Of a stretch of 64,000 nucleotides of DNA, positions 53,001 to 59,000 are shown piece after piece; positions within the stretch are counted from its first letter, which is position 1, and every line of letters starts with the position of its first letter. Made by a program: the position numbers and the translations under genes. Under the pieces are notes generated by a model. It made no database searches. It was not told the DNA's origin and saw only the letters and a program-made list of their open reading frames with translations. Origin of the DNA: Hirudinaria manillensis (Eukaryota > Annelida > Clitellata > Hirudinida > Hirudinidae); contig CM067529.1 of NCBI GenBank assembly GCA_034509925.1, positions 6,983,501 to 7,047,500 of the forward strand. Direction: 5' to 3'.

Positions 53001-56000
53001 CTCCTTCTGCCACGGTCTGCCATATTGGACTGCTCCCTTTATCTTGCCTTTGTGACAGGCAGTTTAAAAACCATTCCGCTTTCCTGAACCACTCAGCGTC
53101 AGCGATGTTGGGGTTTACTTTATCCTCTGCCATTAAAAATGGGGACACACGCGCACAATAATAATATTTCCGCTTTAACAACCGTTTCGAATTTTAAATA
53201 AATAATATTTTAAATTATATTTTATTTTTTGCTTGCAACAATTCCTATCGAGTTCTATTTGAATGCCGTTCAATTATTTACCTCTCCACGTGGATTCAGT
53301 TAAAAGGGATTGCGATATTCGTTGAATTTAATAACATTTACTTCAGTCCATTTATTAAATTTATTTTCTTTGCTTTTATTGTATTCGTGTATTTGATTTT
53401 TTAAACCCGACCGTGGATACGAGAAGAGGCTTCGTTTGCTTTTCAGAGGTGAACCCTCGACTTCTCGAATCGCGGTTTCACATCAGCAGATGTTTTGCAC
53501 CAAAAAAGTGATCAACAACCGCTTTAACTTCCGGTCATCATCGTCGTCGTTATCATCATCGTAGTCATCATCATCATCATTATCAGGAGCATGTTCAATA
53601 TGGCGGAAATAAAACTTAGACAACTGGAACAACCCTGGATCTAAAAATACTTGGAGTAGGAAGAAAAATATGACGGAGAGGAAAAGCCCAGTGGGCAATT
53701 TTTGTAAATATTAAATTTAAATAAATATTCGATTTAATTTAAATAAATATTCAATTTAATTAAATTTAAGGGTTCAATTTTCCCCAAGCTTGCCAGGCAC
53801 AAAACATATTTTGAATGAATGGAATGTGGTGCTTCATTTTGCATCATAGGGGATGATGTGCCCGAAGTCCCCCTTAGATCCGCTAATGTTGACGTGGATG
53901 TGAATGTTGATGTGGATGTTGATGTTGACGTGGATGTTGATATAGATGTTGATGTGGATGTGGATGTTGATATAGATGTTGATGTGGATGTGGATGTTGA
54001 TATAGATGTGGATGTTGATATGGATGCTGATGTGGATGTTGATGTTGATGCTGATGTGGACATGAACGATTGAAATAATTGTGAACGTGGATGTAAATGT
54101 GAAAGTTAATATCGAATATTGAAAACCATGCAATGAAAGCCACGAATGAAGTCCTGATCAACGAATGCCCTTTCTCCGCCCGGACTTTGTTTCCATGGCA
54201 ACAATACGTGATGAAGCGACGGCCGAAAGACATTTGTTGTTGTTGTCGGTGATGATGATGATGATGTTGTTGTTGCTGTCGCTGCTGCTGCTGCTGATGA
54301 TGATGACGACGACGACGGCAATGATTATGATGATAACGATGACGGCGACGATGATGATGATTTGATAAGAGATGATAACCGTTGGTCGATCGTTCAATGG
54401 AATGAATGCTTATGTTGCAAATGATTCGCAGAACAAAAGCAAGCATCAAGTTACGTGAACTACAAAAAATATGTAGAGAAATATAGAAAATTTTTATATT
54501 TGAAATAAAAACCAACAAAATACAAAATAAATAAATAAAAACTAATGAAAAATCTCAAAACAAATACCTCAGTGGAGCGAAACAATTGAATTAGAAGTCA
54601 ACGGACCGTGGAGAGATTAGGAAACATCCTGTCACGTGACAGACAAGCTATTTTTAGAAGCATTTCACCGCATTGTGAGAGATCGATGCTCTAAATTTAG
54701 ACCTGGAAATTCACAGCACATCTCTTCGGGAGCAATTTTTCTCCATGGATGTCAGTTGATGATGATGATAACGATGACGACTACGACGATGATGATGACG
54801 ACGATGACGACGACGACGATGACAATGAGGATGATGATGGTGACGACGTCGATGGAAAATTAGGAGCATCCACAAAATATTATAATTATACTAAATATGT
54901 TCATGTTTGCATTTAATTTATTTTTAGAGAAAATAAAAGAAAAAAAATTGGGATTAAGAAAAATGGCTTGAGACTGGGGAAGACACGATCGCAATGTTTC
55001 TCATCGGAAGAAACAGGCGGTGATGATGACGATGATAGAGCCAGATGGAAATGGTCATGATGATGATGATGATGATGTTACTGGTGGTGATGATGATTAC
55101 GACTACGATAGAACCAGGCAGTTATGGTGAAACAGTATACACTACTGTACGATCTTTTCCTTTATTATAGTTATTAGTTATTGCAATTAATAATAATAAT
55201 AATACATATAATAACAAACATAACAATTTATTATTAAATAAAATACTTATTATGCATATATTACAATTATAACATATAAATCATGAAAATAATATGTTGC
55301 TGTTGTTGTTATTGTTATAATACTGTCAGGTTCGTCTACCGCTTTCGATTTATCCTCTTACCATAACCGGGTTAAGGTGACCTAAATTGCATTCCTGGCA
55401 AATAGGATTCGAGACGACATGAAGGTCAAGGGTCGCACGACAATATCATCGTCGCCATAATATTCAATAGACATAATAATGTAATAACCCGGGGTCCTCA
55501 AACTAATTATAGAAGGTCAGGTTTATTGAAGGTTTTTCAGATGCCTTGGAAGATGTAAAATGCTTAATTGATTAAGCCTTGAAATCTGCTGTTCCTCTAA
55601 TTCTCGCTCTACTTTCCGATATAAATCCATTTGTCAAAGGTACATAACCAAAGAGTCTGAATAGCACCAATTTAATTCTCAAATTATATTGCCACTAAAT
55701 TTAATTAATTATTAAATTAATTAATCGGCAATATAATTTTAAATATTATTCAATTTATTGGATCTAGGGATCCAACACTGCCTCCTCCTTAAATCTGTTC
55801 GTCCCGAACAGACATCTATTCCCATTTTCATTTTTACTCTCGGAATAGGATCCGATCTTCCAACAATCTCATGGCTGCAAATCCCAGATCCATTTGCTTT
55901 GTCATCTTCTGGGATTTCTGTCTCCTCCCTTTTACTTCTGCGTCCCGCAAGTTTCAGCCGCGGAACATCGCCATTTCTATGCACACTCTCCTGCTCCACG

Positions 56001-59000
56001 ATGTCGCCAGATCCCAGACTCTCCTCAGGATCACCTGCTCCACTTTCCATGCTAGGCACTCTCCTGAAATCCCGAGCACTCCCTTCTGTTATTTCCAATG
56101 GAGCCGAAACATCCGCTGGTAAATCCATGGGCTGTTCTGTAGACTCTACTTTTTCCACCATCAAATCCGTGCGCTCCACCGGCAACTCCACGTGACTCAT
56201 CAGTAACTCCTCGGGCTGCACCAACAACTCCACATGATCCACCGGCAATCCCACAGGCTCCTCCGAAAGTTCCACTTGCTCCACTAAAACCTCCGTGAGC
56301 TCTCTGGGCCCTGCTGACGACTCGACCTGATCTGGTAACTCTATGGGCTCCAACGTCGAGTTCTCTAAGTCTGCCATCACGCACAGAGTTTCTGGAGACA
56401 CGCACGCACTGTGGTTGGATGTGCCTTCTAATGACTCCATCCCAATGCTGCCAGAAACGGTACTTGGAACATCAGAACTCTTCTCAGTAGAGTTTCCACC
56501 AGAAACCAAAGAGGCATCCTGACGCGGAACCGCTGTGCCTTTCAAATCACCCCTAATACTCCTAATACACTCCCTCAAATCCTCTGTTAACTCTCTCAAG
56601 AACTTACAATATTCGGACTCGAATTCGTATTCCTCCGGGTCATGGCCATTCTCTGTCAGCCATGCCCCAAGTCGCTCTCGTATCTCAGCTCTCGTGCCTT
56701 TGCAGTCCAGGCCACGATCTCTCAATTCTTGTCTCAATCGAGGCACGTACAATTCATCCAAGTACTTCGGCATCCTTCACTTTTCAACTAAACAAGCTTC
56801 TACCTTAGTTACTTTTGGACACCCTTTAACTCTAAATCCCACTCCTGACACCAATGTAATAACCCGGGGTCCTCAAACTAATTATAGAAGGTCAGGTTTA
56901 TTGAAGGTTTTTCAGATGCCTTGGAAGATGTAAAATGCTTAATTGATTAAGCCTTGAAATCTGCTGTTCCTCTAATTCTCGCTCTACTTTCCGATATAAA
57001 TCCATTTGTCAAAGGTACATAACCAAAGAGTCTGAATAGCACCAATTTAATTCTCAAATTATATTGCCACTAAATTTAATTAATTATTAAATTAATTAAT
57101 CGGCAATATAATTTTAAATATTATTCAATTTATTGGATCTAGGGATCCAACAATAATTTCCTGTGCAACTATTTTATGCAAATTATGTAGCATAAATTAA
57201 TTAACATAAATTATGCATCACTTAGAAGCTTTTAAAAGCTAATAAATCATCAACATTTTGTGAGTAAATGTTCGTTAAAATAATTCATTTTTAATGTTTT
57301 ATTTCATCGAAATACAGGAAAAAAAAGAAGATATTTTCCCAGGCATTCCTATCAGCTGGTGACTCAGGAGATGTAGCGACATTTTTAATGGAAAACTATT
57401 TCTGAATATAAATTAATTTTAAATAATTTTTAAAAATTCGAAAAAAAATCAAAAACAAACAACAAACAAAATGACGAACTGAGATTATTCGGCGGTTGTA
57501 AAGCAAGCAAATTGTTTGACTTCCGAGTGACAGGCACGGATTTAAAACTTCTTTATGTTCATCTTCTTCAACATTCAACTTGTTGCCAGGAAAACATTTG
57601 CAACAACAAATCTTGATTAAATTAATTAATTAATTAATTAATTAATTAATTAAATTAAGAATTTACCGATCAATTCATTCATTTACAAAACGAGATATTT
57701 TTTAAAGTAAATAAAACGATAATATGTTCTGTAACAATGAAATAATAATAATAATAATAATAATAATAATAATAATAATAATAATAATAATAATAATAAT
57801 AATAATAATAATAATAATAATAATAATAATAATAATATCATTATTTATATTCGCATCGTCGTCGTTGTCGTTCTCATTTGCACAAATGCTCGCTGATAGT
57901 TGAAATATCAGATCCATAAGTCAAAAAGTGAATGGCCCTAAACTTTTCTTATCAGACGTAGGGGAATTAACTTGATAATGAGCCTCTGCTGACGACGACG
58001 ACGACGACGATGATGACGATGACGACGACGACGATGATGACGATGACGACGACGACGATGATGACGATGATGATGATGATGACGACGACGATGATGAGCT
58101 ATATGAACCATGATGAAGTCGATTGGCGGCAAATGAGTGCGTGTGTTCGATAATTGAGAGTCATCTCCAAGAGACACGAACGTGTCTATCAACTCGCCTT
58201 CCTATTGGTTGCCTCGTTTCGTGACGTCATCGCGGTTTTGTTGCGTATCCATGACAACGGATCGGCAGATAATGATTATAAATGTCGGCTTATCGTCGTT
58301 TGAGCCAGTTCATCACCTTAAGCTTAAAGAAATGGGTAGAAAAGAGGTGATGATGGTAGTTGTGAAAGCAGTGATTATGATGATGATGATGACGACGATG
58401 ACGGTGGTGTTGATGATGATGATGACGATGATGGTGGTGGTGATGATGACGATGACGATGATTTGACCCGAATTGGCGAAATATTTTCATATTTCCCGTG
58501 TTGTTTCAGTTGAAGTTGAAAACTCATCGATCGAGAATATTTTCGTTCCTTTCATTTGCAGAAATGGAACAGTGATGGTAGTGATGATGATGATAATGAT
58601 GACGACGATGAAGATGACGTTATATATTATACATATATATCCATAAATACATATATGTCATTACTACCACTATATATATGTAAACATAAATATGAAAAGA
58701 TTGATTACATTCTAAAAGTATTCAGAATATTGAATGATCATATCCCCTCACTCCAGCAATCAATATCTTCACTACAACAACAACTATTATCATCATCTCA
58801 ATCGTCAACATCATCATCATCGTCGTCGTCATCATCATCATCATCGAGTTCTTCCGTCATGGTTGACGTCATGGCAATCTTTTAACTTAGCAGTCGAGCT
58901 ATACTTCTTTCTGAACGTTTTCTATCGTTGTTGTTTTTTTTTTATCGTTCGAAAAATAATGGATGCGACGTAAGAGGAGCAGATAAAACTTTGGAACGAT

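Follow-up and report, generated by a model that had tools for sequence, protein, structure and literature searches.

A SAP-headed non-autonomous LTR retroelement family and its candidate Ty3/Gypsy partner in Hirudinaria manillensis

A stretch of 64,000 nucleotides from Hirudinaria manillensis (assembly GCA_034509925.1, contig CM067529.1, positions 6,983,501 to 7,047,500 of the forward strand; hereafter the window) carries on its minus strand, from 55480 to 57152, a complete long terminal repeat (LTR) element of 1,673 bp, which we refer to as the short element. A direct repeat of 300 nt with 100% identity (55478-55777 and 56853-57152) includes its two LTRs, which in element orientation are the 5' LTR (TGTTGGATCC...GGTTATTACA, 56855..57152, minus strand) and the 3' LTR (55480..55777, minus strand), each of 298 bp and with 0/298 mismatches between them. 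The 5' LTR is followed by a primer-binding site (PBS; TGGTGTCAGGAGTGGGAT, 56836..56853, minus strand), and a 28-bp stretch composed of a hairpin (CTGTTCG-GGA-CGAACAG) and a polypurine tract (PPT) precedes the 3' LTR (55784..55811, minus strand). A target-site duplication (TSD) ATAA can be read from the sequence on both sides (55476..55479 and 57153..57156). With paired LTRs, a PBS, a PPT and a short TSD, the short element is structurally an LTR retroelement. An earlier examination of the same letters, the sequence-only reading, had announced identical 298-bp LTRs, a polypurine tract and a duplication of 4-5 bp at this place; all three are there, the duplication being of 4 bp.

The interior contains one open reading frame (ORF; 55739..56773, minus strand) of 344 codons plus a stop, the final 12 of which lie within the 3' LTR. 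The Pfam SAP domain (PF02037) is found at residues 7-35 (E=1.9e-7, 30.9 bits for a cut-off of 23.9), inside a Gag-like module that covers residues 2-53 (56615..56770, minus strand) and is defined by this match together with a profile match to the Gag N-terminus of autonomous elements presented below. Beyond SAP, the Pfam scan of the 344 residues gave no domain above cut-off: the second match, SDE2_2C, is weak (E=0.037, below cut-off) and falls on the SAP residues, no gag or zinc-knuckle domain matched at E up to 1, and protease, reverse transcriptase (RT), RNase H and integrase are absent from the above-cut-off matches. The single SAP-headed ORF without pol functions is thus as first described. 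Further downstream, residues 141-226 (56096..56353, minus strand) form an acidic repeat region with a net charge of -19 and a period of 21 bp, five copies of which stand at 21-bp spacing within 56156-56275.

The short element belongs to a large family. Across the genome (148 Mb, 23 contigs), the joint between LTR, PBS and leader occurs 299 times (138+161) at up to one mismatch, compared with 0 for a reversed control pattern, a count that rules out a single-copy oddity. A genome-wide protein search with the ORF gave 844 candidates ranked by score, and in the best 121 of them, all separable copies, the matched stretch has an in-frame stop in only two; one sampled locus (L015) is a clearly decayed copy. 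The two LTRs are identical in 21 of the 32 short elements that were measured. In a script run over the sampled loci, a perfect 4-bp TSD flanks 30 of the 33 copies with the usual leader, 29 of these 30 duplications conform to NTAN, and ATAT is the commonest (14 cases). The duplication is also perfect in locus L013, where the script left the leader unclassified. For orientation, TA accounts for 7.6% of the dinucleotides in the window.

Searches with RT led to a second, autonomous family, which we call the partner. Its members (L023, L024, L026, L027 and others) are about 5.5 kb long with LTRs of 221-235 bp, and intact copies encode gag-pol in a single open frame of about 1,670 aa. Scanned in pieces with Pfam, L026 shows in order SAP (1.6e-10), a coiled-coil-like region, a CCHC knuckle, an aspartyl protease, RT, RNase H and an integrase (H2C2 and core). 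The coiled-coil-like models matched below their cut-offs, and no capsid domain was named in the scan of these pieces; the capsid is probably the stretch between coil and knuckle, an assignment made by position, as is the loss of the capsid in the short element. By its domain order, the partner is a Ty3/Gypsy-type element with a SAP-headed Gag. Its own LTR/leader junction is found 139 times in the genome (62+77), and the LTRs are identical in 4/7 pairs.

The two kinds of junction lead to different interiors. Among the matches listed, an RT lies 1.5-4 kb downstream of 71/100 partner junctions versus 0/100 short-element junctions, and the short-element ORF follows 42/100 short-element junctions versus 0/100 partner junctions. 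The RT set used here was drawn from the best 150 of 1,478 candidates, 111 of which were retained after non-LTR-looking ones had been dropped by eye. An autonomous element bearing the LTR of the short element was not found, none of the 100 listed junctions (out of 299) having a listed RT 1.5-4 kb downstream.

Short element and partner have several signals in common; the sequence-only reading had advised looking for an autonomous relative that shares the LTR ends and the primer-binding site. At the LTR/PBS joint, the window copy and L026 agree in 25/25 bases, a stretch that includes the PBS, and they agree in 28/28 bases over the hairpin and PPT. This latter stretch has 503 sites in the genome at up to three mismatches (controls 0), and its stem is predicted to form in both families. 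In the partner it encodes the end of pol (...RDEQI, stop) and the window copy uses a different frame for it, so that it looks kept as nucleic acid. A longer-ORF copy of the short element (L025:5201-6439, plus strand; 413 aa) was also noticed, which ends partner-like in ...DEQI and has the hairpin in the partner frame. The LTR tips agree between the families (TGTTGGATCCCT at one extremity and GACCCCGGGTTA close to the other); the bodies between the tips differ, and the alignments listed there are an AT-rich segment plus weak short matches. Finally, the partner TSD is a perfect 4 bp in 6/7 copies and follows NTAN in 6/6, and this common target rule fits a single integrase serving both families.

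In 17/18 positions, the PBS matches the 3' end, with CCA added, of a tRNA gene that contains an intron and was detected in the same genome with the Rfam tRNA model. We read this gene as tRNA-Leu with anticodon CAA, the Rfam label being only 'tRNA'; of the tRNA-Leu PBS proposed earlier, the fit to a tRNA is thus established and the leucine identity depends on our reading of the gene. The tRNA 3' end has 321 reverse-strand matches in the genome at up to two mismatches, and all 100 that are listed lie in one array. This array (G000:C1:4489177-4514275, perhaps extending beyond; L062-L069) consists of tandem intron-bearing tRNA genes with a 246-bp period, read as tRNA-Leu CAA, and supplies the tRNA that fits the PBS of both short element and partner. 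ARAGORN reported no tRNA in 2/8 array loci in which the Rfam model detected them; its intron setting was run on just the opening 1,600 bases of L062, a cut that truncated the first tRNA and made this no fair test.

When a profile of 14 short-element ORFs was compared with one of 6 partner Gag pieces, the Gag N-terminus matched residues 2-53 over 52 columns, at 62% identity and E=3.8e-15, and no match was obtained past residue 53. This alignment makes the SAP head a homologue of the module that opens the autonomous Gag, and the wording of a SAP-domain gene standing instead of gag finds no support. A captured host SAP gene is ruled out by the same homologous head in the partner. With tblastn against the partner loci, identity is 51-52% in the alignments that reach residues 77-78 and 37% in the one that reaches residue 120 in L022, but this extension past residue 53 enters the coiled region with falling identity; a short match at residues 321-341 stems from the common hairpin and LTR edge. 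Past residue 53, the larger part of the ORF lacks a convincing counterpart in the partner in these comparisons, and the zinc knuckle is gone. Between 14 short-element and 8 partner heads, silent sites are saturated (pS 0.80) and nonsynonymous ones are not (pN 0.25), which is why no dS is given between the two heads. The heads either split long ago or undergo very fast silent change, and in both cases their amino acids were kept; over the heads of both families, the nonsynonymous-to-synonymous rate ratio (omega) is 0.241 (twice the log-likelihood difference, 2dlnL, 43.3). Our search for a SAP domain in Gag, which covered mostly open-access literature, turned up no report of one among the papers listed.

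Within the short-element family, the ORF looks to be under purifying selection, with constraint on the head and the repeats and none evident on residues 54-140. The 35 copies used yielded 26 distinct coding sequences (residues 1-320), for which omega is 0.575 for the ORF (2dlnL 25.2 over omega=1), 0.244 for the head (17.4) and 0.636 for the rest (14.8), a result that answers positively the earlier question of whether the ORF is conserved between copies. When 200 variants were each counted once, the nonsynonymous fraction was 0.615 versus 0.708 expected by chance, and only 6/5000 shuffles were as low. For the head, with 8 nonsynonymous and 9 synonymous variants, 171/5000 shuffles were as low, and the nonsynonymous fraction is low as well in the repeats (residues 141-226; 18/5000 shuffles as low).

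Contacts between the two families were also encountered. At one locus (L022), the LTR of the short element is joined exactly, at the usual position, to the interior of a partner, and an intermediate LTR tip was found at one further partner-leader junction and at four short-element-leader junctions. The L022 chimera (G000:C3:10940500-10950000) is made up of 118 bp from the interior of a short element, the LTR of a short element, and the interior and LTR of a partner; by eye, it sits in a tandem fibrinogen-type gene and has ATAT at both outer ends, but these flanks are only suggestive because ATAT is common here. Besides, a partner copy has inserted into a short-element copy in both L021 and L032, at similar points roughly 230-250 bp into the interior of the latter.

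Taken together, these observations suggest, with a probability that we put at roughly 80%, that the short elements form a non-autonomous 'satellite' LTR family of about 300 LTR/leader junctions, which the co-resident SAP-Gag Ty3/Gypsy family mobilises in trans. The sequence-only reading had already proposed a recent, non-autonomous element probably moved by the enzymes of another one, and the identical LTRs, the missing pol and a partner with common signals all agree with it. In the corresponding scheme, the short element would be transcribed from its own LTR, its RNA would enter partner particles and be copied there by the partner RT from the tRNA primer, and the partner integrase would insert the product. 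No Gag match was found in the ORF beyond the head, and nothing that could build a shell alone. In the least certain step, the SAP-headed protein would most likely join or mark partner particles, or guide its own RNA or cDNA via the common module. A stronger version, in which the satellite retrotransposon maintains a helper of its own, a SAP-tipped Gag mimic securing its place in partner particles, is possible and is put forward only tentatively.

Several observations weigh against this picture. A perfect duplication is missing from 3/33 short elements (one base off) and from 1/7 partners, and few junctions are chimeric, one being exact and five having an intermediate LTR tip. No clear constraint is seen at residues 54-140 (1785/5000 shuffles) or 227-320 (561/5000). 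The 35 copies used for selection are mostly top-ranked matches with an intact ORF, the decayed L015 having been left out together with the truncated or interrupted copies of L021, L029 and L032; as the sampled copies are intact by choice, the absence of stops was not used as evidence. Moreover, the trees ignore recombination while the subfamilies look mosaic by eye, and the saturation between the heads (pS 0.80, pN 0.25) leaves the constraint unassigned to a branch.

One rival would be that the short element is a simple internal-deletion derivative of the partner, whose ORF is a passive Gag remnant still open because the copies are young. The DNA homology to the partner indeed sits at both ends of the interior, and 21/32 identical LTR pairs imply little time for decay. 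However, the LTR bodies differ although the PBS stretch and the hairpin/PPT are identical, the Gag profile match ends at residue 53, the silent sites of the head are saturated relative to the partner, and omega stays below 1, lowest in the head, among differing subfamilies; we consequently regard this origin as improbable. It is also the case that the sequence-only reading had named as a refutation, namely full-length relatives encoding gag-pol of which this copy is merely a deletion: the relatives exist and encode SAP-Gag-Pol, but the mere deletion copy is contradicted by the LTR body, the stop of the match at residue 53, the saturation and the selection.

A somewhat better candidate, though still an unlikely one, is that the ORF persists for reasons at the RNA level, 5' translation favouring stability or packaging while the protein itself does little. 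Uneven constraint, near neutral at residues 54-140, would suit this explanation, as would the final 12 codons being LTR sequence; the amino-acid constraint in the SAP head (omega 0.244) and in the acidic repeats is not what reading-through alone predicts. Gag fragments can act as dominant negatives, and a Gag N-terminal module deprived of the rest resembles them. That the protein restrains the partner or competes with it instead of serving the short element seems nonetheless very improbable to us, as the partner copies are young too (4/7 identical LTR pairs).

Elsewhere in the window, open stretches at 33042-37094 (minus strand) encode C-5 cytosine methylase, BAH and CXXC domains, a set that we take to be that of DNMT1, and an ion-transport domain at 60583-61314 (minus strand) belongs, by eye, to a voltage-gated potassium channel.

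Element and candidate partner reside in one genome with a common primer site, PPT, LTR tips and target rule, which makes trans-mobilisation directly testable. Should the helper proposal prove true, the short element would be a retroelement counterpart of protein-encoding satellite viruses and a non-autonomous LTR kind apart from TRIM, LARD and TR-GAG. If a parasite element does keep a Gag-tip protein under selection, 'non-autonomous' would not have to be 'non-coding', and this protein would give a handle on the function of SAP in Gag.

Compared with its partner, the short element has the same kind of PBS, hairpin and PPT, LTR tips, NTAN target and SAP Gag head; the partner differs by its size of about 5.5 kb, its 221-235 bp LTRs with another body and its gag-pol. 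Among known systems, PbTRIM of an ant is, according to its description (PMC3532108), 480-781 bp long with LTRs of 152-184 bp and no coding capacity, and no autonomous partner was known to its authors. Like the short element, it is a non-autonomous LTR element with a leucine-tRNA PBS, a 4-bp TSD that is mostly ATAT and young copies; unlike it, the short element has a 344-aa ORF and a candidate partner, the two being compared here by description and not by sequence. A search for the partner of PbTRIM could be guided by the ATAT target and the type of primer tRNA, which both have in common. More generally, the short element resembles TRIM and LARD by its LTRs, PBS and PPT and by its lack of pol. 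In the scheme of PMC6022998, these two classes carry no domain, whereas the short element has a selected ORF: at 1,673 bp it falls under the 2,000-base limit of TRIM but is not non-coding, and it is both too short and too coding for LARD (at least 2,000 bases). TR-GAG, as portrayed in PMC6022998 and PMC8704663, is likewise devoid of pol, with a single Gag-related ORF and mobility in trans. It keeps a GAG domain or full-length GAG, whereas in the short element the match to Gag is confined to the SAP head (about 52 residues) and the knuckle is absent. By its gene content, the short element takes a place intermediate between TRIM, devoid of an ORF, and TR-GAG, in which Gag is retained.

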